Origin: Desulfobaculum xiamenense
GTDB taxonomy: Bacteria; Desulfobacterota; Desulfovibrionia; Desulfovibrionales; Desulfovibrionaceae
Reading direction: 5' to 3'
DNA: 64,000 bases
NCBI RefSeq assembly: GCF_011927665.1
Contig: NZ_JAATJA010000002.1
Location: 1,054,001 to 1,118,000 of the forward strand
Shown: piece by piece, positions 1,527 to 50,702 of the stretch
Position numbering within the stretch: the stretch's first letter is position 1
Layout: every line of letters starts with the position of its first letter
The notes under the pieces: generated by a model
Seen by the model: only the letters and a program-made list of their open reading frames with translations
What the model was told of the DNA's origin: nothing
Database searches by the model: none
Made by a program: the position numbers and the translations under genes

Positions 1527-2837
1527 CTAGGAGCCGATGTGAGCGATGGGCAGTTCGTCCCAGTTGGTGGTGAAGCGCCGCGACAGGCGGGCCTGACGCA
1601 TGTCCCATTCGCGGGCGACGCCGGAGGCCGCGTACTGGACGGTATCGCGCCCCCACTTGGAATTGATGCCGTCGAGGGCCTTCATGAGCGCCTCGCCGCG
1701 CGGGTCCGTATCCACGATGGGGTCCGGGGCGATGGTCAGCAGGCTCAATTGGCGGGTGCCTGCGTCCTCAAGGCCCGTGAGGGTCACTCCGGCCTTGATG
1801 TAGGCGTATCCGGAGCGGAAGATGCCGTCCAGAATGCGCAGGGCGGCCTTGATGAGCGTTGGCGTGTGCGCTGTGGCCACGGGCAACTGCAAGGTGCGCG
1901 AGGCCGAATGCTGTGGTAGGTCCGGCCGGTGGGGATTGGTGGAGACGAAGACGCCGACGTGCGCGGCCACGAGGTGCTCCCGGCGCAACTTCTCCGCGGC
2001 GCGGGTGGTATGTGCGGCCACGGCCTCGCGCAGGTCCGTCGGGTCCGTCACCGGATGCCCGAAGGAGCGTGACGCGAGGACCGAGCGACGTGGCGCGGGC
2101 GCGTCTTCCAGTGGAATGCAGGAGACGCCGCGCAGTTCGTGAACGGTCATGAGGCCGCGAATGGTCATCCTGCGGCGGACCCAGTCGTCGGGCATGTCGC
2201 GCAGGGCAAGGGCCGTGCGCACGCCGTGGCGCGTGAGCATCTCGGCGTAGCGCCTGCCGACGCCCCACACGTCGCCGACGTCCGTCCCCGCGAGGATGGC
2301 GTCCGGGTCGGGATGTGCGGCGAGATCGAACACGCCGTCGCAGTCCTGCGCGCGCTTGGCGTGGCGGCTGGCGATCTTGGCCAGTGTCTTGGACGGGCCG
2401 ATGCCGACGGAGACGGGAATGCCCGTCCACTGGCCCACGCGGGTGCGTATGGCGCGGGCGAGGTCCGTCAGCGTTGTGCCCGCGCAGGGCGTCAGGTGCA
2501 GAAAGGCCTCGTCGATGGAGTAGATTTCCATGTCCGGCGCGAAGGTGGCCAGCGTGTCCATGACCCGGCGCGACATGTCGCCGTACAGGGCGTAGTTGGA
2601 CGAGAACACGCGCACCCCGTGGTGGCGGAAGAATCCTTCGCGCTTGTAGGCCGGTTCGGCCATGCGGATGCCGAGGGCCTTGGCTTCGGCGCTACGGGAG
2701 ATGACGCAACCGTCGTTGTTGGAAAGCACCACCACCGGCACGCGCGCAAGGGATGGGGCGAAGGCCCGCTCGCACGAGACGTAGAAGTTGTTGCAGTCGA
2801 CCAGCGCGTACATGGCTGGCTGGGCCGTGGTGGGCAT
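1527..2837 (-). CDS. umuC: UmuC, catalytic subunit of Y-family DNA polymerase V
   Basis: A 436-residue Y-family translesion polymerase. Catalytic acids are visible: D14 in ALVDCNNF and D109-E110 in YSIDEAF. The [11 protein letters not shown] segment of the fingers is typical of UmuC, and the protein runs through a little-finger domain to a C-terminal UmuC tail of family-like length (about 420). It copies damaged templates after association with processed UmuD and is normally SOS-induced. ATG 2837 has AGGA upstream and lies 8 bases after the umuD stop, so the pair is one operon. A second Y-family polymerase (dinB) occurs at 36445. Confidence 0.93.
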
Positions 2838-2845
2838 GGCGCGTC

Positions 2846-3349
2846 CTACAGCTTGTGGATGACGTAGGTGACCACGCCCCAGACCTCGAAATCACGCTCG
2901 GGTGCGACTTCGAAGGGCGGGTACTCCGGGTTTTCAGGCATGAGCCACAGTTTACCGTCCCTGCGGCGGATGCGCTTCACGGTCAGTTCTCCGTCCAGTG
3001 CGGCGACGACAACGTGGTTGTCGCGCACGTCCACGGCGCGGTCCACGACGATGACGTCGCCATCCTGAAGGCGCGCGTCGATCATGGAATCCCCGTGCAC
3101 ACGCACAAAGAAGGTGGCGGCGGGGTGGCGCACCAGATGCTCGTTGAGGTCGATGGTCCGTTCGATGAAGTCGTTGGCCGGGGAGGGAAAGCCTGCGGCC
3201 ACGGCTTCGAGGTGCAGCGGCAGCGTCAGCGCGCTTCGTTTCTCGAAGCCGAGAATCTCGTTGCCGCGCAGGGCCGCCGGAGTGGCGGGGGGCGTGGCGG
3301 AATCGCGAGTGGGGGTCGCGTTGGCGACGGTTGAAGCCTGTCTCGTCAT
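2846..3349 (-). CDS. umuD: UmuD-like S24 self-cleaving protein, N-terminally extended
   Basis: A LexA/UmuD-family S24 peptidase of 167 residues. The Ser-Lys dyad is visible as S88 (HGDSMID) and K125 (LTVKRI), with a probable cleavage bond A52-G53 in the AAGFPSPA segment. E. coli UmuD is 139 residues and cleaves Cys-Gly; here the site is Ala-Gly as in LexA, and about 28 extra residues precede it. Processed UmuD' binds UmuC to make polymerase V. The start is uncertain: ATG 3349 gives MTRQAS, and an in-frame ATG at 3367 or codons further upstream (to 3709) are possible. Two inverted repeats lie in the upstream region (3435-3481). Confidence 0.85.
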
Positions 3350-3434
3350 GATGCCGCAGGCTAGCATATGCCCCGTGCGAAGGGAACAGCGAGGAGTGCT
3401 GGGGAATGCAGGTGTGTCCGTTATGATTGGTTCC

Positions 3435-3481
3435 GTGGCACGATCCGTTCGGCGGGTGCCACTACAGAACCCGCGCCGTTC
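3435..3481. promoter_or_regulatory. Inverted repeats in the umuD/histidine-kinase divergent region (operator candidates)
   Basis: GTGGCAC at 3435-3441 is repeated inverted as GTGCCAC at 3456-3462. GAAC (3467-3470) and GTTC (3478-3481) form a second half-site pair spaced by 7. The region lies about 90-130 bases upstream of umuD and about 100 bases upstream of the divergent kinase gene. A damage-responsive repressor would be expected for umuDC, but the LexA box of this lineage is not known to me, so the assignment is tentative. Confidence 0.3.
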
Positions 3482-3584
3482 GTGAATTTTTTGTCTTGAT
3501 AAAAAGTGGTACACCTGTTTTTCATAGTCCGTTTGCGGTGAAGCGGAATCAGCCGCATGCGCCGTCATGCAAAAGGAACGCTCA

Positions 3585-5059
3585 GTGTCCGTCTGGAAGC
3601 GAATATCCCTTCGGGGGCATATTTTCATTCTGTTGTTCTCGATGGTGGTCGTCACCCTGTGCGTGGGGCTGGTGGCCATGTGGTATGCCGTGCGTGTGGA
3701 CGGCATCATGACCAGCGTGGTGGGAAGAAGCTACGCCGCGACCCGCGCGGCGGAGGAACTGACCATCGCCCTCGTGACCCAGAAGGGCCTGACCACCTAC
3801 TACTTTCAGGACCGCAATCCCGGCTGGCTCGACTCGCTGGAGCAGAAGCACGGGAATTTCCAGCACTGGTTGCAGAAGGCGCGGGAGTCGGCGTCCGGCT
3901 CCGAGGCCGAGGAACTGCTGACGCGCATCGAGTCCGGGTACCGGCGCTACGTCAACGCCCGCGATCAGGTGTTGGTTCTGTACCGTGACGGGCGCGCCGA
4001 GGAAGGCGCTCTGCTGCACAAGGACATCCGGGGGCAGTTTCACGAGCTTCTGGAATTGTGTCAGCGCTACCGGCACATCCACGAGGAGGCCATCGCCGCG
4101 TCCAACGCCGAGATTGCCGAGCGGCTGGAGAGCATCCGTAACGCCTCTGTGGCGGCCATGCCGCTGGTGGCGGGGCTTGGGCTGTTTCTGGCGTGGTTCA
4201 TCGTGCAGCATGTGCTGCGGCCCATCCGGCGCATGGCCGACGAGATGGATTTCGCCCGCAGCGGGCCACTTCTGCCGGACGAACTGTCCAACCTCGGCAC
4301 GCGGGTGCGCAGCCTGCTGGAGGACGTGGACCTCACTCATCACAAGCTCAAGCGTAGCCGCGAACACCTGAAGCAGTCCGAGAAATGGGCGCTGACCGGC
4401 AAGCTCGCGGCGGGCGTGGCCCACAGTATCCGCAATCCGCTGACGTCCGTGAAGATCCGTCTGTTCTCCCTTGAGCGCAATCTGTCGCTCTCGGGCGAAC
4501 AGAAGGAGGACTTCGAGGTCATCACCGAGGAGATTGGACACATCGACTCCATCGCCCGCAATTTCCTTGAATTTTCTCGTCCGCCCAAGCTGCGCATGCA
4601 GCCCGTGGACGTGTCGCAGGTGGTGGACAGCGCCATGAAGCTCATGCGTCATCGCCTCGAATCGCACGAGGTGGAAGTGGTGCATGACCGTCCCTCGCCG
4701 CTGCGGAACATTTCCGCCGACCCGGAGCAGCTCAAGGAGGTGTTGGTCAACCTCATGGTCAACGCCTGCGACGCCATGGGGCGCGGCGGACGCATCTGCA
4801 TTCGCGAGGAGGAGGGCTTCGTGGTGCCCCTTGGCGACGTGGTGATGCTGCGCGTGTCCGACACCGGTCCCGGCATTCCCGAGACGCGGCGCAAGATGGT
4901 CTTCCAGCCCTTCTACAGCTCCAAGGAGGAGGGAACCGGGCTTGGCCTGTCCATCGCCAAGCGCATCGTGGAGGACCACGGCGGATGGATCAACGTGACC
5001 TCGCGCGACGGCGAGGGCGCGACATTCACCATCACCCTGCCCTGCAAGGAGGAAGGAAA

Positions 5060-5075
<16 letters not shown>
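3585..5075 (+). CDS. Membrane sensor histidine kinase, partner of the downstream NtrC-type regulator
   Basis: About 496 residues. A TM helix near residues 12-34 is followed by a roughly 155-residue periplasmic helical sensor region, a second TM near 191-210, a HAMP-like linker, the HisKA box with H280 in AAGVAHSIRNPL, and a HATPase_c domain (NACDAMGRGG, DTGPGIP, GTGLGLSIA). It should autophosphorylate on H280 and pass phosphate to the regulator whose GTG start overlaps its last 16 bases. GTG 3585 is preferred because AAGGA lies 8 bases upstream; ATG 3567, six codons earlier, has no clear ribosome site. The signal sensed is unknown; the long helical periplasmic part resembles four-helix-bundle sensors. 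Confidence 0.88.
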
Positions 5076-6493
<1,418 letters not shown>

Positions 6494-6861: not shown

Positions 6862-6877
6862 TGGCACGAGCGTTGCT
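6862..6877 (+). promoter_or_regulatory. Sigma-54 (-24/-12) promoter
   Basis: TGGCAC-N5-TTGCT matches the RpoN consensus (TGGCAC-N5-TTGCW) at every defined position. With -12 at 6875-6876, transcription should start near 6887-6889, almost exactly at the ATG of the next gene. An NtrC-type activator gene ends 368 bases upstream. Confidence 0.85.
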
Positions 6878-6888
6878 CTAAAAGAGGC

Positions 6889-7329
6889 ATGACAAGGGAA
6901 CGGACACAGGCACACGGGTACACGCTGGTGGTCGCGGAACGCAATCCGCGCATCAGGCGTTTCCTCGAACGGGAGCTGGCTGCCGAGGGCTACGGCATCA
7001 TCGCCGTGGGCGACGGCCGAGAGCTGCGGGCCGCCGCGGGCCGCCGTCCACGTCCCAGTGCTTATGTCGTGGACATCGAGATTCCCTATCTGGAGGAAGG
7101 GCTGAAGGATGGGCCGGGCGGGCACCTGATTCGCCCGCTGGTCATCCACGCGCTACTTCCGGACACCGCCCAGCATCCGGCCATGGCACTGGCCGAGGCC
7201 GTAGTGGGCAAGGACGCCGACCCCGGAGCGCTCAAGCGGGCCGTGGCGCGGGTGCTCGAAAAGTTCCACAGGCACGACGATGCCGCAACCGACGAATGGG
7301 GCGATGCGGAGGAACGTCATGAATCCTGA
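6889..7329 (+). CDS. Degenerate receiver-domain protein
   Basis: A 146-residue protein with the length and layout of a stand-alone receiver domain (TLVVAERNPRIRRFLEREL, then VVDIEIP, then VVGKDADP). The predicted acceptor Asp (D62) and the conserved Lys near residue 109 remain. The N-terminal acidic pair that binds Mg2+ is replaced by Ala-Glu (residues 16-17), and the Thr/Ser loop is not recognisable (IHALLP). It may therefore bind or decoy a kinase rather than be phosphorylated normally. ATG 6889 sits at the predicted sigma-54 start site with no leader or ribosome site; it overlaps the next gene by 11 bases. Confidence 0.7.
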   Translation: MTRERTQAHGYTLVVAERNPRIRRFLERELAAEGYGIIAVGDGRELRAAAGRRPRPSAYVVDIEIPYLEEGLKDGPGGHLIRPLVIHALLPDTAQHPAMALAEAVVGKDADPGALKRAVARVLEKFHRHDDAATDEWGDAEERHES

Positions 7330-9103
7330 AGAACTCCATTCCCCGCGCTACTACCGCACCCTCACGCGGTCCATGGCGGCCATCGTCATCCTCGTTTCCA
7401 TGACCCCGCTCCTGCTCATCAGCGCGGTCAGTTCCTACCAGTTCCATTATTCCTTCCAGTCCAAGGTGGAGGCCCAGCTCAAGGAGATGGTCCAGAAGCA
7501 CCAGCAGACCATCGACCTCTACCTGAGTGAGAAGCTTGGCGAGTTGCGCCTCGTGGCGCGCACCAAGTCGTTCGCCGAACTCTCCGACAACGCCCAGCTT
7601 GCCGCCGAACTTCGCCACCTTCAGGAGGAGTTCAGCGGGGCCTTCGTGGACCTCGGCCTCGTGGCCGACAACGGCGTGCAGTCGGCCTACGCGGGGCCGT
7701 TCCCGCTGCGCAACGCGGACTATTCCGGGTCGGCGTGGTTCCGCAGGGCCATGGAAAGCGAATTCTACATCAGCGATGTGTTTCTTGGCCTTCGTGGCGT
7801 GCCGCACTTCATCGTGGCGGTGCGTCAGAAGTGGGAGGGGCGGCAGTGGATACTGCGCGCCACCATCGACTTCATGGCCTTCAACTCGCTGGTCGAGAAC
7901 ATACGTATCGGACGGACCGGCAGCGCCTTCATCATCAACAACCAGGGCACCTTCCAAACAGGGCCGCCGCGTGACGCATCCCTCGACACGCGCTGGCTCG
8001 TGCAGGCGCTGCAGGCCCAGGGTCGTGGGTCGAAGGTACCTTCGGGGACGCCCGAAGGTACTCGGACCCCGCTTCGGTCCTACTGGTCCTCGGCTATCAT
8101 GCCGGGCAAGGTCACCGTCTTCCGCCACGCCGATCCCGAGGGTGTGGATGCCATCTACGTGTCCACGCGGCTCAAGGGCGGCGACTGGATACTCATCTAC
8201 CGACAGGACGAGGCCGACGCGTTTTCGGCCCTGTATCAGACCAGACGGCTCGTGGTGTTCATCGTGGGCGCGGGTGGCGTGGCCATCATCCTCATGGCTG
8301 TGCTCCTGTCGCGACGCATCGTGCGACACATCGAACAGGCCGACCACGAGAAGGAAGTCATGAACGATCAGGTCATCGAGGCCGGAAAGCTGGCCTCCAT
8401 CGGCGAACTCGCGGCGGGTATCGCTCACGAGATCAACAATCCCGTGGCGATCATGGTGGAAGAGGCCGGATGGATCGGCGACCTGATGCGCGAGGGCGAG
8501 GATCCGCGCGACAACCGTGGCGAGATAGCCAAGTCCCTTCAGCAGATTCGCACGCAGGGCGCGCGCTGCAAGGAGATTACCCACAAGCTTTTGTCCTTCG
8601 CCCGCAAGATCGATCCCACCATGCGCGAGGTGGATTTGAACGACCTCGTGCGCGAGGTGGCGAGCCTCTCCGAGCAGCGCGCACGCTACGGCAACATTGA
8701 GGTGGAGCTGGACCTCGGCGAGGGCCTGCCGAGTCTCGAAGGCTCGCCGTCGGAATTGCAGCAGGTGCTGCTCAATCTGGTCAACAACGCCATCGACGCC
8801 ATGGGCACGCGCGGCGGCAAGGTTCGCGTGCGCACGGCCTACGAGAACGAGGGGATTCGCCTGAGTGTCGAGGACAACGGCGAGGGCATCCCCAAGGCGA
8901 ACATTTCGCGGATATTCGATCCGTTCTTCACCACCAAGCCGGTGGGCAAGGGAACGGGACTCGGCCTGTCCATCATCTACGGCATCGTCAAGAAGATGGG
9001 CGGCGAGATCAGCGTGGAAAGCGAGCAGAATGTCGGCACGACGTTCCATGTGCGGTTCCCGGTACCGGGGCGCAAGGGCGAGTCCGACGCGTCGGAAGCA
9101 TAG
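7319..9103 (+). CDS. Membrane histidine kinase with periplasmic Cache-like sensor
   Basis: About 594 residues: TM near 17-39, a large periplasmic region to about 310 with Cache features (SGSAWFRRAME, a typical dCache segment), TM near 311-333, HisKA with H370 in AAGIAHEINNP, and HATPase_c (NNAIDAMGTRGG, DNGEGIP, GTGLGLSII). The start is ATG 7319 after GGAGGAA, overlapping the upstream gene. It is followed by three genes for receiver-only proteins, its probable phosphorylation partners. Within the sensor domain, DNA at 8031-8061 consists of overlapping palindromes encoding a Gly/Ser/Pro/Arg-rich stretch (see the repeat entry). Confidence 0.88.
   Translation: MNPEELHSPRYYRTLTRSMAAIVILVSMTPLLLISAVSSYQFHYSFQSKVEAQLKEMVQKHQQTIDLYLSEKLGELRLVARTKSFAELSDNAQLAAELRHLQEEFSGAFVDLGLVADNGVQSAYAGPFPLRNADYSGSAWFRRAMESEFYISDVFLGLRGVPHFIVAVRQKWEGRQWILRATIDFMAFNSLVENIRIGRTGSAFIINNQGTFQTGPPRDASLDTRWLVQALQAQGRGSKVPSGTPEGTRTPLRSYWSSAIMPGKVTVFRHADPEGVDAIYVSTRLKGGDWILIYRQDEADAFSALYQTRRLVVFIVGAGGVAIILMAVLLSRRIVRHIEQADHEKEVMNDQVIEAGKLASIGELAAGIAHEINNPVAIMVEEAGWIGDLMREGEDPRDNRGEIAKSLQQIRTQGARCKEITHKLLSFARKIDPTMREVDLNDLVREVASLSEQRARYGNIEVELDLGEGLPSLEGSPSELQQVLLNLVNNAIDAMGTRGGKVRVRTAYENEGIRLSVEDNGEGIPKANISRIFDPFFTTKPVGKGTGLGLSIIYGIVKKMGGEISVESEQNVGTTFHVRFPVPGRKGESDASEA
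8031..8061. repeat. Overlapping palindromes inside the kinase sensor domain
   Basis: CGAAGGTACCTTCG at 8031-8044 is a perfect 14-base palindrome. GTACCTTCGGG (8036-8046) is repeated inverted at 8051-8061 after a 4-base loop, giving an 11-bp perfect stem. The frame is kept and encodes residues around 238-248 of the kinase (KVPSGTPEGT). It resembles a small palindromic element inserted in frame, but homologues would be needed to show that. Confidence 0.45.
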
Positions 9104-9157
9104 GCAGGCGTCGTCCGCAGGGCGGAGGGCGTTAAACATGAGACCAGGAGGTGCATA

Positions 9158-9598
9158 GTGTCCACACTCACCACCACGATCCTCATCGTCGATGACGAAG
9201 TGGCCTTCGTCGATGCCATAGCCCGCAGGCTGGACAAGCGCGGATTCGACATCGTCAGTGCCCACTCGGGCGATGAGGCCCTGAATGCACTCGCGGCGAA
9301 CGACAAGGTCGACGTGGTCATTCTGGACGTGAAGATGCCCGGAATGGACGGCATCGAGACGCTCAAGGAGATTCGGCGGCAGTTCCCGCTGGTCGAGGTG
9401 ATCATGCTCACCGGCCACGGAACCGTGGAGTCCGCCATCGAGGGCATGAAGCTCGGTGCCTTCGATTTCCTGCTCAAGCCGAGCGACATCGAGGAACTGA
9501 CGGCCAAGGTTGCCGAGGCCAAGAGCCGCAAGGCCGGGCACGAGGACAAGATTCTCGAAGCACAAAGTCTTGACATAGTTCTTCGTCGCGGAGATTAG
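9158..9598 (+). CDS. Single-domain response regulator (receiver only), first of three
   Basis: 146 residues, almost entirely a CheY-like receiver: acidic pair in IVDDE, acceptor D57 in ILDVKMPGMDG, Thr loop MLTGHGT, Lys in LLKPSD. There is a short basic tail and no DNA-binding or enzymatic domain. The GTG start at 9158 follows CAGGAGG. It probably receives phosphate from the kinase encoded immediately upstream and acts by protein contact. It is closely related in sequence to the receivers at 9609 and 10000, suggesting tandem duplication. Confidence 0.88.
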   Translation: MSTLTTTILIVDDEVAFVDAIARRLDKRGFDIVSAHSGDEALNALAANDKVDVVILDVKMPGMDGIETLKEIRRQFPLVEVIMLTGHGTVESAIEGMKLGAFDFLLKPSDIEELTAKVAEAKSRKAGHEDKILEAQSLDIVLRRGD

Positions 9599-9608
9599 GA
9601 GCATCCTC

Positions 9609-9998
9609 ATGAACCGTGGATCCGACACCATCGTCAAGGTGCTGCTCGTCGACGACGAGGCTGGGTACGTGGAGGTGCTGACCAAGCGCCTCGGCCTGCG
9701 CGGCATCGAGGTCACGGGAGCGCTCTCCGGCACGGAGGCCCTGCGCCTCATGCGCGGACACGAATACGACGTGGCCGTTCTCGATCTCAAGATGGAGGAC
9801 ATGGACGGCATAGAGGTGCTTCGGATCTTCAAGCGGATGGCTCCGGAAATGCCGGTGCTCATGCTCACCGGGCATGGCTCCCAGCTCGCCGCGCGCGAGG
9901 GAATGGCCGCCGGAGCCTTCGACTACCTCACCAAGCCCTGCGAACTCGACCAGCTGATCGAGAAGATTCGCGAGGCCGCCGGACACGGGAGGGAGTGA
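9609..9998 (+). CDS. Single-domain response regulator (receiver only), second of three
   Basis: 129 residues, a receiver domain and nothing else: VDDE acidic pair, acceptor D59 in VLDLKMEDMDG, MLTGHGS loop and TKPCE lysine. The usual MPG after the acceptor is MED here. It begins 10 bases after the previous receiver gene and ends one base before the next, so all three are co-transcribed. No output domain is present, and its target is unknown. Confidence 0.88.
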   Translation: MNRGSDTIVKVLLVDDEAGYVEVLTKRLGLRGIEVTGALSGTEALRLMRGHEYDVAVLDLKMEDMDGIEVLRIFKRMAPEMPVLMLTGHGSQLAAREGMAAGAFDYLTKPCELDQLIEKIREAAGHGRE

Positions 9999-9999
9999 G

Positions 10000-10428
10000 A
10001 TGGAAACCTGCGGATGCCGACTGCTCATCGTCGATGACGAAGAGGATTTCGCGGCGGTGCTGCGTAAGCGGCTGACCCGGCGCGAAGTGGACGTGACCGT
10101 CGCGCATAGCGGCGAGGAGGCGCTTGCCGCCGTGTCCGCAGGTGGGTTCGACATCGTCCTTCTGGATGTGAAGATGCCCGGCATGGACGGTATAGCCACC
10201 CTGCGCGAGATCAAGGCGCTGGCCCCGGCTGTGGAGGTCATCATGCTCACCGGGCATGCCAGCGTCCCGGCGGCCATGGAGGGCATGACGTCGGGGGCCT
10301 TCGACTACCTCGTCAAACCGGTGGATTTCGGCGATCTCGTGCTCAAGCTGCAAGACGCCTACAGGCGCAGGGAACTGCGCTGCGGCAGGCAAACGCATGA
10401 TGCTAGTGACCCGCGACAGCGCGGGTAA
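10000..10428 (+). CDS. Single-domain response regulator (receiver only), third of three
   Basis: 142 residues with a complete CheY-type receiver: VDDEEDF, acceptor D56 in LLDVKMPGMDG, MLTGHAS, VKPVD. A short C-terminal tail has two Cys and many Arg and carries no recognisable domain. ATG 10000 follows GGGAGTGAG. It closes the receiver array 45 bases before the TauE/SafE-family permease gene, suggesting the array and transporter serve the same stimulus. Confidence 0.87.
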   Translation: METCGCRLLIVDDEEDFAAVLRKRLTRREVDVTVAHSGEEALAAVSAGGFDIVLLDVKMPGMDGIATLREIKALAPAVEVIMLTGHASVPAAMEGMTSGAFDYLVKPVDFGDLVLKLQDAYRRRELRCGRQTHDASDPRQRG

Positions 10429-10473
10429 GCGATAGAGGCGGAACCGATTACGAAAAATGGAGGAGTGCAACTC

Positions 10474-11754
10474 ATGAAATTCGGCAGACGGCTGTACAAC
10501 ACACTTCTGGAAGGTTCCATCGCGTACGCGAAGTGGGATCTGGAGACCTCGCGCAACATCCTGCGCAGCAAGAAGCGCATGTGGATTCTCGCGCTCATGG
10601 TGGTGCCGATCATCCTCGGGTCCGTGGCCATCGCCGCGCCCGAACTGCCCGACATCCTCGGCGGACACAAGGCCTATTCCCCGGCCTACTACACGCCCGT
10701 CATCTTCGGCGTGTCCATTCTCATCGGCCTGTGCGCCGGTCTCATCACCGGCTGCATCGGCGCGGGTGGCGGCTTCATCATCACCCCGGCGCTGATGAGC
10801 GCGGGCGTGAAGGGCATCCTCGCCGTTGGTACCGACCTGTTCCACATCTTCGCCAAGGCCATCATGGGCACGGCGATCCACAAGAAGCTCGGCAACGTGT
10901 CCGTGGGACTGGCCGTAGCTTTCCTCGTTGGCTCCGGCATCGGCGTGACGGGCGGCGGCGTCATCAACCGCGCCCTGTATCAGGCCAACCCGCTTCTCTC
11001 CGACACCTTCATCAGCGTGATCTATGTGGTGCTTCTGGGCTTCCTTGGCACCTACGCGCTCATTGACTTCCTGCGCCTGCGCAAGGCCGGCGGCGACGTG
11101 GGTGCGCACGGTGCCGAGACTGCGTCCGAGGCCTCCGCGTCCGGCCGCAAGAGCCTGCCCGAGCGCCTGCAGGCCAGCAAGATTCCGCCGCTGATCAGCT
11201 TCGACGAAGACCTCACCCCCGGCGGCAAGAAGATTCCGGCCGTGTTCGTCGCCATCTGCGGCAGCATCGTCGGCTTCGCGGCAGCCATCATGGGCGTGGG
11301 CGGCGGCTTCCTGACCTTCCCCATGTTCGTGTACATCCTTGGCGTGTCGTCCTTCACCACCGTTGGCACCGACATTCTCCAGATCATCTTCACCGCCGGT
11401 TACGCGTCCATCGCCCAGTACGCGATCTACGGCTTCATCTTCTACACGCTGGCCATGGGCATGCTGCTCGGTTCCCTGCTGGGCATTCAGGTCGGCGCGC
11501 TGACCACCAAGGTGGTCAAGGGCATCTACATCCGCGGCTTCTACGCTACCGCCATCATGGCCGGTTTCGTGAACCGCCTGTTCGCACTGCCCGGTAAGCT
11601 GAACGAGATGAAGATCATAAACATCTCCTCCGAGCTGTCGCACATTCTGGCCAATATCGGCAACGTACTGTTCTTCATCGCCATCGGCATCTTCGCGGTG
11701 TGGGTGGTCGGCAAGTTCCTCGGCAGCATGAAGCTCCTGAGAGAGGAGGCGTAA
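10474..11754 (+). CDS. TauE/SafE-family membrane exporter (sulfite/organosulfonate family)
   Basis: A 426-residue polytopic membrane protein. Two repeats with the glycine-rich signature of the family are visible: GLITGCIGAGGGFIITPAL near residue 90 and the matching AAIMGVGGGFLTFPMFVYILG near residue 280, each followed by a T-D segment (VGTD). The cytoplasmic loop between the halves is long. Members move sulfite, sulfoacetate or related anions, and a link to sulfur metabolism is attractive in a sulfate reducer, but the substrate is inference. ATG 10474 is preferred over GTG 10465 because GGAGGA lies 9-10 bases upstream of it. Confidence 0.85.
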   Translation: MKFGRRLYNTLLEGSIAYAKWDLETSRNILRSKKRMWILALMVVPIILGSVAIAAPELPDILGGHKAYSPAYYTPVIFGVSILIGLCAGLITGCIGAGGGFIITPALMSAGVKGILAVGTDLFHIFAKAIMGTAIHKKLGNVSVGLAVAFLVGSGIGVTGGGVINRALYQANPLLSDTFISVIYVVLLGFLGTYALIDFLRLRKAGGDVGAHGAETASEASASGRKSLPERLQASKIPPLISFDEDLTPGGKKIPAVFVAICGSIVGFAAAIMGVGGGFLTFPMFVYILGVSSFTTVGTDILQIIFTAGYASIAQYAIYGFIFYTLAMGMLLGSLLGIQVGALTTKVVKGIYIRGFYATAIMAGFVNRLFALPGKLNEMKIINISSELSHILANIGNVLFFIAIGIFAVWVVGKFLGSMKLLREEA

Positions 11755-11757
11755 CCC

Positions 11758-12516
11758 ATGTCCAAGAGTGAAAACAGGAAGCACATGATTCTGGGCCTCT
11801 CGATGGGGGTCGTGTTCTTCGGCGTGCTCATCGCGATGTTCTCGCCCATCTTCGGCAAGGGCATGAACGCCCTCGAATTCTCGGATCAGCTCTTCAACAC
11901 CATCGCCAAGGGCTCCACCGAGTACATCCCCGGCCTGCAGAAGCAGGTGGCCAAGTTCGACGGCAAGACCTTTGACCTGACCCTGCACTTCCACAGCGGC
12001 ACCACTGAAGGACACGAGGGCATCAACGTGAAGGCCGACGAGGTCGCCGCCAAGGCGTCCGTCCTTCTCGGCACCGTCGCCGATGTCGAACTCATGGGCG
12101 AGCAGCTCAAGGTCTCGGGCGACATGGGCCGCGTGCTCACCGCCGTGCTGCAGGACTCCGCCGACATGTTCGAGAATCGCGGACAGATCGTCAGCGACAA
12201 GTACGGCATGGACGAGCGTATGGTCATGTTCATGTGGTGGAAGGCGCTCAAGGAGCTGGATAAGGAACTCAAGATCCAGGGTGGCCGCGATAACGTGGCT
12301 ATGGCCAAGTTCGTCGACACCGTGGTCAAGAAGGGTGTCGAGGTCGGCTACAACTTCTACGGCATCGCGCCGGAGAAGGCGTCCGACCGCGCGGGCATCC
12401 TGTCCTTCTCCCTTGTGTTTTACGTCGTGTACACCCTGTGGTGGGGCATGACGATCTTCTACCTCTTCGAGGGCTGCGGCCTGGCCATGAGCGCCGGACG
12501 CAAGAAGGAAGTCTAG
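11758..12516 (+). CDS. Unrecognised two-TM protein with periplasmic domain, permease companion
   Basis: A 252-residue protein not assigned to a family. A TM helix near residues 10-28 is followed by about 180 soluble residues, predicted periplasmic, with a LHFHSGTTEGHEGI segment and regular helices, then a second TM near 217-242 (LVFYVVYTLWWGMTIFYLF) and a short basic tail. Both termini are probably cytoplasmic. ATG 11758 begins 3 bases after the permease stop and has GGAGGCG upstream, so the two are tightly coupled. It could be an accessory subunit or a signal transmitter for the exporter. Confidence 0.75.
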   Translation: MSKSENRKHMILGLSMGVVFFGVLIAMFSPIFGKGMNALEFSDQLFNTIAKGSTEYIPGLQKQVAKFDGKTFDLTLHFHSGTTEGHEGINVKADEVAAKASVLLGTVADVELMGEQLKVSGDMGRVLTAVLQDSADMFENRGQIVSDKYGMDERMVMFMWWKALKELDKELKIQGGRDNVAMAKFVDTVVKKGVEVGYNFYGIAPEKASDRAGILSFSLVFYVVYTLWWGMTIFYLFEGCGLAMSAGRKKEV

Positions 12517-12523
12517 CGAAATC

Positions 12524-12540
12524 GGGGCGTATGCCCCTTT
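12524..12540 (+). terminator. Short intrinsic terminator candidate after the exporter operon
   Basis: GGGGC-GTAT-GCCCC followed by TTT. The stem is only 5 bp and the T run short, so termination may be partial. Its T run merges with the -35 element of the next promoter. Confidence 0.4.
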
Positions 12541-12579
12541 GACCGGGGCGGGCCGTCCAGCGTATACTGACGGTCCGCC
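12539..12579 (+). promoter_or_regulatory. Sigma-70-type promoter with inverted repeat around the -10
   Basis: TTGACC (12539-12544), an 18-base spacer and TATACT (12563-12568) resemble a housekeeping promoter for the gene at 12666. GGCGGGCCGT (12547-12556) and ACGGTCCGCC (12570-12579) form a 9-of-10 inverted repeat bracketing the -10, a good position for a repressor. Confidence 0.55.
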
Positions 12580-15364: not shown

Positions 15365-15400
15365 GACGCCCGTCCGGCAGTGCCGGGCGGGCGTCGTTTC
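15365..15400 (+). terminator. Intrinsic terminator between convergent genes
   Basis: A 14-bp stem (15365-15378 with 15382-15395, one T-G pair) and AGT loop, followed by GTTTCGTT. It lies between the converging PEP-synthase-like gene and tgt; the T-rich side favours the plus strand. Confidence 0.7.
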
Positions 15401-49941: not shown

Positions 49942-50017
49942 TGGCTCCCCGGCACGGACTTGAACCGCGAACCTAGTGGTTAACAGCCACCCGCTCTGCC
50001 TATTGAGCTACCGGGGA
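49942..50017 (-). tRNA. tRNA-Asn (anticodon GTT), copy 1
   Basis: A 76-base cloverleaf with encoded CCA. The acceptor TCCCCGG pairs with CCGGGGA, the D arm starts TAGCTCAATAGGCAGAGC, the anticodon loop is CTGTTAA, and the T arm contains GTTCAAGTCC. It reads AAC/AAU codons and is a substrate of the tgt product. It is identical to the copy at 50425-50500. Confidence 0.97.
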
Positions 50018-50054
50018 ATGTTGCGCACGTGCGTTGCCGCCGTTGCGAAGAGCG

Positions 50055-50083
50055 TGTTTAGGCGTATTCACCATCGACGTCAA
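50055..50083 (-). promoter_or_regulatory. Promoter of tRNA-Asn copy 1
   Basis: On the minus strand TTGACG (50078-50083), exactly 17 bases, then TAAACA (50055-50060). The predicted start is about 30 bases before the tRNA. Confidence 0.75.
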
Positions 50084-50386
50084 GCGCAAAAAATGAAAAA
50101 GTTGAAAAAGTCCGTGGGGCGGGCACGTGAAGCGATGGGGCGGCGGGGCGGTTAGGTCCCACGCGGAAGGTGGCGGTCGCCATCGGAGAAACAAATGTGC
50201 GGCAGTGGGGAAAAGGCGGCGGTCTGCGGAGTTGCTCGGCTGTATCCGTGGTCGCGGGTCGGTGGGCATGTTTGTCGTTTTGCACAGGGGCAAAACGTGT
50301 TAAGCGTCCATGAGCGGGATGGATGGAAACGGCGGGGCCGCCGAGCGTGGCGGAAGTTGGCATGGGGGCGGCTTCGGCAGGGTACG

Positions 50387-50417
50387 AAAAAAGGTCCATG
50401 CCGAAACATGGACCTTT
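50387..50417 (-). terminator. Terminator of the second tRNA-Asn unit
   Basis: Minus-strand 11-bp stem AAAGGTCCATG/CATGGACCTTT (50407-50417 with 50390-50400), a 6-base loop and a run of T on the 3' side. It differs in sequence from the terminator of copy 1. Confidence 0.88.
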
Positions 50418-50424
50418 GAAATTC

Positions 50425-50500
50425 TGGCTCCCCGGCACGGACTTGAACCGCGAACCTAGTGGTTAACAGCCACCCGCTCTGCCTATTGAGCTACCGGGGA
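50425..50500 (-). tRNA. tRNA-Asn (anticodon GTT), copy 2
   Basis: 76 bases, identical to copy 1 including CCA. It has its own promoter at 50535-50563 and its own terminator, so the two are separate transcription units rather than a tandem operon. Confidence 0.97.
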
Positions 50501-50657: not shown

Positions 50658-50702
50658 TCTCGGGTTCTTTCACGATGAATGTCACGGTTTGGAGAGAGTA
50701 CC

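Follow-up and report, generated by a model that had tools for sequence, protein, structure and literature searches.

A TauE permease cluster with lone receivers and a PEP-synthase-like protein that recurs in sulfate-reducing Desulfobacterota

We analysed a stretch of 64,000 nucleotides from Desulfobaculum xiamenense (assembly GCF_011927665.1, contig NZ_JAATJA010000002.1, positions 1,054,001 to 1,118,000, forward strand), hereafter the window, which carries a cluster of two-component signalling genes, a TauE permease gene, the gene of an orphan membrane protein named here DUFm, and a gene for a protein resembling phosphoenolpyruvate (PEP) synthase. An earlier note, made from the sequence alone, had presented positions 6889-12516 as four receivers and one kinase fused genetically to a TauE/SafE exporter, with direct control of transport by phosphorylation, or a graded distribution of phosphate, suggested as the role of the receivers. 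The locus is real, widely conserved and poorly understood, with a mechanism that probably differs from this proposal, and its composition is related to that of a cluster already in print.

Gene content of the cluster

The seven plus-strand open reading frames (ORFs) listed in the earlier note are all present where it placed them (table 1), and none of the genes is fused. From the dCache kinase to DUFm the ORFs are arranged in an operon-like manner, with intergenic gaps of 54, 10, 1, 36 and 3 bases, and the cluster extends past both ends of the block as first delimited, with a kinase, an NtrC-type gene and a sigma-54 site upstream and the PEP-synthase-like gene downstream. Three of the four announced receivers (R1, R2 and R3) are intact, with the DD, D, T and K residues all in place and without an output domain. 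The first one, at 6889, is degenerate: its Asp and Lys are kept, the DD pair and the Thr are missing, and the protein itself has no Pfam match, so that a canonical receiver is ruled out at this position. In its family, ERN or a similar motif replaces the DD pair; one homologue (locus L123), scoring 33.7 bits, exceeds the PF00072 cut-off, and two others lie under it at 23.0 and 29.5 bits.

The permease is a PF01925 member like the rest of the TSUP/TauE-SafE family, which reportedly includes the sulfite exporter TauE of C. necator. Unlike typical members, it belongs to a long subfamily (approx. 430 residues) with a conserved N-terminal extension and central loop, and it shares 60-82% identity with 17 relatives; no PDB match was obtained by sequence. 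DUFm, rightly described as an unrecognised membrane partner, has no Pfam or NCBIfam family. Its predicted model (pLDDT 93.9) comprises a helix at residues 3-28, an alpha/beta domain and a helix at 208-239. Both termini carry basic residues and may therefore be cytosolic, which would place the domain in the periplasm. The PDB comparison by sequence gave a single match, to a designed protein (E 0.097), and structure searches gave at best E 0.25 with Foldseek and Z 6.7, again for a designed protein, with VIA, from which a new fold does not follow.

The PEP-synthase-like protein displays, in this order, a conserved helical N-terminal domain (residues 1-125), an ATP-grasp domain, a phospho-histidine domain and an unassigned C-terminal domain (approx. 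580-882). Seven residues are invariant in 38 aligned sequences, of which K144, R242, D428, E430, Q443 and R445 are presumably the ATP-grasp site and H531 the phospho-histidine, roles that we transfer from PPDK. Matches of the whole structural model with E < 0.001 include PEP synthase, RPH, PPDK, pyruvate kinase and an enzyme named HpeI, and the closest PDB relative spans residues 126-581. The ATP-grasp and phospho-histidine domains and the catalytic residues are common to this protein, PEP synthase, PPDK and rifampin phosphotransferase. Unlike PEP synthase and PPDK, however, it has an extra helical N-terminal domain, an unassigned C-terminal domain and a linkage to lone receivers, and no PEP/pyruvate barrel was found, Pfam at E 0.01 giving PPDK_N and PEP-utilizers only. 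Rifampin phosphotransferase consists of ATP, rifampin-binding and C-terminal histidine domains, an order that is not followed here, where the histidine domain lies at 496-565 of 882 and is followed by approximately 300 residues. A conserved HDITRF.HEK motif occurs within residues 580-882, which match no known family, and the helical N-terminal domain is a possible dock for a receiver.

Table 1. Features of the cluster and its flanks, in window coordinates.
Feature	Position	Strand	Evidence or remark
Second sensor histidine kinase, overlaps next ORF	3567..5075	+	PF00512 44 bits, PF02518 98 bits
NtrC-type sigma-54 activator (receiver-AAA-Fis helix-turn-helix)	4985..6493	+	PF00158 244, PF00072 105, PF02954 35 bits
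Sigma-54 promoter match TGGCACGAGCGTTGCT	6862..6877	+	zero-mismatch
Degenerate (pseudo-)receiver	6889..7329, frame open from 6829	+	homologues match PF00072; without DD pair
Membrane histidine kinase, dCache sensor	7280..9103	+	dCache_1 75, HisKA 30, HATPase_c 106 bits
Lone receiver R1, phosphorylation residues kept	9158..9598	+	PF00072 113 bits
Lone receiver R2, phosphorylation residues kept	9609..9998	+	PF00072 100 bits
Lone receiver R3, phosphorylation residues kept	10000..10428	+	PF00072 106 bits
TauE/TSUP permease	10465..11754	+	PF01925 115 bits, cut-off 32.6
DUFm, orphan membrane partner	11758..12516	+	family-less; adjoins TauE
Sigma-70-like promoter match, weak	12539..12568	+	10/12 positions
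PEP-synthase-like protein, 882 residues	12666..15314	+	PPDK_N 295 bits, PEP-utilizers 63 bits
Terminator-like hairpin, 14 pairs, 3' of cluster	15365..15395	+	longest stem of 8 found

Recurrence of the layout and co-occurrence of its genes

Homologous loci (L numbers) were compared in two sets, a family set, for which 66 of the 67 DUFm matches in family genomes were fetched, and a named set of 80 out of at least 503 confirmed loci, fetched by TauE. Three loci occur in both by identical TauE (L038 = L105, Desulfovibrionaceae bacterium UBA6814; L044 = L123, another Desulfovibrionaceae bin; L067 = L168, Pseudodesulfovibrio pelocollis). A lone receiver was defined as a receiver ORF of less than 340 residues, with less than 70 residues after the domain and no kinase match. 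Once loci with short flanks were dropped, 57 of 62 family and 48 of 80 named loci served for the neighbour count, and 56 and 46, respectively (102 full-flank loci), for the co-occurrence of receivers and enzyme.

TauE and DUFm are the constant core of the locus. DUFm follows TauE in 79 of the 80 named loci, the last being a contig that ends at TauE; since this set was fetched by TauE, 79/80 is the independent figure for their adjacency. A full window-type TauE lies beside DUFm in 62 of the 66 family loci, a 62/62 adjacency that is circular on the DUFm side because these loci were fetched by DUFm; the remaining four are L055, with TauE cut by the contig end, and L098-L100, where weak DUFm matches lie beside another TauE (25-26% identity). 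DUFm was detected in 63 of 99 family genomes and in 54 of 237 phylum genomes, and all 54 were positive for dsrA (a match over its cut-off), which was found in 118 of the 237; the overlap, matched by hand between two lists, gives a Fisher p of 1.5e-20 with kinship ignored.

The linkage of kinase, lone receivers, TauE and DUFm reported in the earlier note proved real and recurrent in both sets. A kinase, at least three intact receivers, TauE and the PEP-synthase-like gene occur together in 20 of the 102 full-flank loci, window included, and a degenerate receiver is also present in 12 of these 20. Examples are Desulfosarcina widdelii (L173) and Desulfacinum infernum (L108), the latter sharing with the window a degenerate receiver ahead of the kinase. 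The layout thus recurs across sulfate-reducing Desulfobacterota, in named genomes of several groups, and a one-off arrangement is ruled out. TauE-DUFm was also found in the Gram-positive sulfate reducers Desulforamulus and Desulfoscipio (L140, L160, L154), with no same-strand receiver close upstream and no PEP-synthase-like gene within the stretches examined.

Intact receivers, for their part, are missing from 25 of the 56 family and 16 of the 46 named TauE-DUFm loci, and their distribution follows that of the PEP-synthase-like gene. This gene lies nearby in 29 of 31 family loci with an intact receiver versus 7 of 25 without, and in 29 of 30 versus 6 of 16 named loci. Among independent pairs drawn from a tree of 99 distinct TauE sequences, the 13 that contrast in intact receivers comprise seven concordant with the PEP-synthase-like gene, none discordant and six tied (p 0.016). 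The degenerate receiver is unlinked to this gene on the same tree (one pair concordant, two discordant, 11 tied). Where at least three intact receivers are present, a kinase lies upstream in 12/12 family and 15/16 named loci.

These distributions bear on the proposal of the earlier note that the receivers bind TauE or DUFm directly and gate transport by phosphorylation, the PEP-synthase-like neighbour then being a separate metabolic or regulatory gene. The receivers are indeed tightly linked just upstream of TauE, the N-terminal extension and central loop of this TauE subfamily could dock a regulator, and a degenerate receiver accompanies TauE-DUFm in the absence of intact receivers in 17 of the 102 full-flank loci (15 distinct). 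However, because intact receivers follow the PEP-synthase-like gene, are so often missing at TauE-DUFm and also occur beside PEP-synthase-like genes with no TauE nearby, direct control of TauE by the receivers is not favoured, and we consider it unlikely. The gene-neighbourhood search that the earlier note had recommended gave a divided answer: the layout recurs, but receivers are often missing beside TauE, which goes part of the way towards the routine unlinking of receivers and exporter that the note had named as evidence against its proposal.

The association between receivers and enzyme was also observed outside TauE-DUFm loci. PEP-synthase-like genes are expanded, with matches in 67 of 99 family genomes and up to 10 in each. 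In 20 copies from outside the loci (hand-picked, one per genus in 20 genera, not always the best-scoring and not random), a lone receiver lies within 3 kb in 17 and a receiver domain within 230 bases of the match in 15, while TauE lies within 6 kb in only six, two TauE lineages being sought by profile and a third by BLAST, which gave none. In the D. xiamenense genome itself, a lone receiver by the strict definition lies within 3.5 kb of three of four PEP-synthase-like genes, and of all four if a longer ORF is counted; by simulation, with rounded sizes for two small contigs and without the weak fifth match, which lies in a frame of 1201 residues, the chance of at least three is approximately 2e-4. 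Up to three PEP-synthase-like genes stand in tandem near TauE and a lone receiver in L187-L192 and L204, where the extra copies have diverged (approx. 300-570 bits).

Another TauE lineage, of approximately 310-350 residues, also lies beside a PEP-synthase-like gene, with a lone receiver close by in most of 20 loci, which show recurrence and not frequency as they were chosen for the closeness of TauE and enzyme; the intervening gene encodes a PF09608 membrane protein in the two loci tested. Elsewhere in the D. xiamenense genome, a 20 kb stretch (L185, C2:146000-165990) holds a second TauE (345 residues), two PEP-synthase-like genes, kinases and lone receivers.

Promoters and transcriptional control

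The sigma-54 match between the NtrC gene and the receiver operon is the only zero-mismatch site of the 64 kb window, in which sites with up to two mismatches show no excess (57 versus 74.5 expected from shuffles). The predicted start point (approx. 6888) almost touches the ATG at 6889, so that this gene may be leaderless or begin further downstream. In the family set, coding-strand TGGCAC[AG]NNNNTTGC sites lie 5' of TauE in 37 of 60 loci, versus none of 60 on the other strand and a shuffle mean of 0.29; in the named set they are less frequent (10 of 56, versus 1 of 56 on the other strand and a shuffle mean of 0.13). Among inspected examples, the spacing between site and TauE is approximately 3-3.6 kb in loci with kinase and receivers in between (L035, L037, L042, L049, L063) and below 1 kb in those with few genes in between (L044, L058, L066), as expected if the sites head the operon. 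Sigma-70-like sites numbered four in the scanned stretch versus 1.9 (standard deviation 1.6) in shuffles, and terminator-like hairpin sites were not more numerous than in shuffles (7.8).

Nine sigma-54-controlled operons with TSUP or PSE transporters have been reported in Desulfovibrio vulgaris (Kazakov et al. 2015, PMC4641369). These operons and the window have in common sigma-54 promoters and two-component NtrC-type activators over TSUP permeases, whereas lone-receiver arrays and a PEP-synthase-like protein are not described in the accessible part of that report.

Such a setting is compatible with a role of the receivers in transcription rather than transport, as phosphate sinks or relays to the upstream NtrC regulator or to each other that would tune sigma-54 transcription. 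Both the second kinase and NtrC regulator directly upstream and the consensus sigma-54 site at the operon head agree with it. We nevertheless hold it to be quite improbable, as one locus (L149) has a kinase and three receivers but no long receiver protein within 9 kb upstream of TauE, and no Hpt family appeared among the Pfam matches of the genes scanned.

Transport, phosphotransfer and the published nitrate cluster

Contrary to the view that no such system had been described, a cluster of similar composition is in print, namely the Desulfovibrio nitrate cluster DVU0251-DVU0245/Dde_0597-Dde_0605 (Korte et al. 2014, PMC4001038), which comprises TauE, a hypothetical protein, PtxB, a kinase, a lone receiver, a PEP-synthase-like protein and a phosphatase (PMC4001038, Table 3). 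Locus L208 shows this set and order (TauE, membrane protein, PhnD, kinase, lone receiver, PEP-synthase-like protein, DSP-phosphatase); L207 and L208 were assigned to the nitrate cluster by gene set and order, not by DVU sequences. The nitrate cluster and the window have in common TauE, a membrane partner, a histidine kinase, a lone receiver and an ATP-grasp/phospho-histidine protein of PEP-synthase type with no PEP barrel. They differ in that the nitrate cluster has another TauE lineage, no DUFm, and one receiver instead of the window's three plus a degenerate one; the kinase sensor is dCache in the window and sCache-HAMP-PAS in L208. By the window-type profile, the TauE proteins of L207 and L208 score 22 and 14 bits, versus 635-738 bits for window-type TauE proteins of the named loci. 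A PhnD/PtxB protein and a DSP-phosphatase belong to the nitrate cluster and not to that of the window: the six PF12974 matches of the genome all fall outside the window range (C2:1054001-1118000), and no DSP/tyrosine-type phosphatase was found among the proteins scanned around the cluster. Identity with the nitrate cluster is ruled out by TauE lineage and by the lack of PhnD/PtxB and phosphatase. A nitrate-cluster-like group does exist in the D. xiamenense genome (L205, C3:203000-222900), with PhnD, a kinase, a receiver, a PEP-synthase-like protein and a protein related to the phosphatase of L208; its 20 kb stretch gave no TauE match.

Isolated transposon mutants in DVU0251 (TauE), DVU0250 (hypothetical protein), DVU0247 (lone receiver) and DVU0246 (PEP-synthase-like) grew equally with and without 100 mM nitrate, whereas the DVU0245 (phosphatase) mutant and the control were not resistant at this concentration (PMC4001038). 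In L208 the gene order starts with TauE, and a single gene follows that of the PEP-synthase-like protein. Should D. vulgaris share this order, the insertion in DVU0246 could exert no polar effect on TauE, only on DVU0245, and nitrate sensitivity would then require the PEP-synthase-like protein itself. In G20, the kinase mutant had high fitness (2.34; PMC4001038). The authors suggest that a leaky thiosulfate transporter admits nitrate and that loss of these genes bars its entry (PMC4001038); the word 'exporter' used for the window protein was based on the family name only, and TSUP protein function in sulfate reducers has been called unpredictable (PMC5840216). The accessible part of PMC6052904 adds nothing on the nitrate cluster.

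The reading that we favour, tentatively and at somewhat less than an even chance, is a transport module of sulfate reducers under sigma-54/NtrC control, in which a signal passes from the kinase to the receivers and on to the PEP-synthase-like phosphotransferase, which enables an oxyanion permease. We infer every phosphotransfer, protein contact, substrate and direction of transport in this scheme. NtrC and sigma-54 would control transcription of the anion-transport module, and TauE and DUFm would form the transport unit, its substrate being most likely a sulfur oxyanion and uptake likelier than export. The dCache kinase would sense a ligand and phosphorylate R1, R2 and R3, which would act mainly on the PEP-synthase-like protein, as a switch, and not mainly on TauE. 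The enzyme would move phosphate from ATP onto its own H531, and its C-terminal domain may enable or energise the permease, a last step proposed by analogy with the published mutants of the related cluster.

The same link between receivers and enzyme could also serve metabolism, the PEP-synthase-like protein phosphorylating a small molecule or a protein and the permease being co-inherited since both serve sulfur respiration. The expansion of the gene in the family and the 14 of 20 sampled copies with no TauE within 6 kb fit such a role. Two further TauE lineages with the same enzyme and lone receivers (PF09608 type and nitrate-cluster type) speak against it and count for the favoured phosphotransfer route to the permease, as does the PEP-synthase-like mutant of the nitrate cluster, which shares the phenotype of the TauE mutant (PMC4001038); a purely metabolic enzyme is therefore, in our opinion, an improbable target. 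A broader version of the favoured route appears rather doubtful to us, namely that lone receivers switching a PEP-synthase-like ATP:histidine phosphotransferase, with its barrel swapped for a new target domain, are a general device by which sulfate reducers gate or energise oxyanion transport through several TauE lineages. Such a link from two-component signalling to transport via a PEP-synthase-like enzyme was not found in the literature searched.

Several observations weigh against the route from kinase to permease. On the TauE tree, the 12 pairs contrasting in the PEP-synthase-like gene comprise seven concordant, one discordant and four tied (p 0.07), and intact receivers compared with the upstream kinase give five concordant, one discordant and seven tied (p 0.22). 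In the named set alone, the degenerate receiver does track the PEP-synthase-like gene (16/16 versus 19/30); three loci (L051, L089, L162) have intact receivers with no such gene nearby, and 11 have it downstream without an intact receiver. Separate transcription of the 12666 gene is possible, as a 149-base gap and the sigma-70-like match precede it. Moreover, 64 of the 118 dsrA genomes are without DUFm.

The published genetics, the only functional evidence that we found, also call for caution, since they concern a paralogous cluster that has no DUFm and a TauE of only 14-22 bits by the window-type profile. The phenotype of the DVU0247 receiver mutant could be explained by polarity on DVU0246, and the pooled DVU0250 mutant had a fitness of -5.82 despite the resistance of the isolated one (PMC4001038). 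The kinase step is not borne out in D. vulgaris, since the annotation gives DVU0248 as a pseudogene and, in preliminary data, the isolated mutant fared little or no better in nitrate (PMC4001038). Finally, growth in chlorate suffers from the loss of DVU3299, a different putative anion transporter in D. vulgaris (PMC10102598), so that import is not a given for transporters of this kind.

Sulfate respiration begins with the entry of sulfate or another sulfur oxyanion, and the many TSUP permeases of sulfate reducers have no assigned role (PMC5840216). A permease pair that is confined, among the genomes sampled, to those with dsrA and that comes with signalling genes of its own is a good candidate for such a transporter. 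The favoured route from receivers through the PEP-synthase-like protein to the permease would also give a testable cause for the nitrate resistance of Desulfovibrio receiver and PEP-synthase-like mutants, a trait that bears on the control of oil souring, and would provide some of the numerous lone receivers in sulfate reducers with an output.

Around the cluster, the gene on its 3' side (past 15314) is tgt, encoding queuine tRNA-ribosyltransferase on the opposite strand, and is unrelated. On the other side, at 1527-3709 on the minus strand, a UmuC-like polymerase (IMS, DUF4113) and an S24 peptidase are likely an SOS mutagenesis pair. Further away, at 49942-50500, two genes for tRNA-Asn share an anticodon, lie approximately 400 bases apart and are divergent from a class II (D/K/N) tRNA synthetase at 50679.

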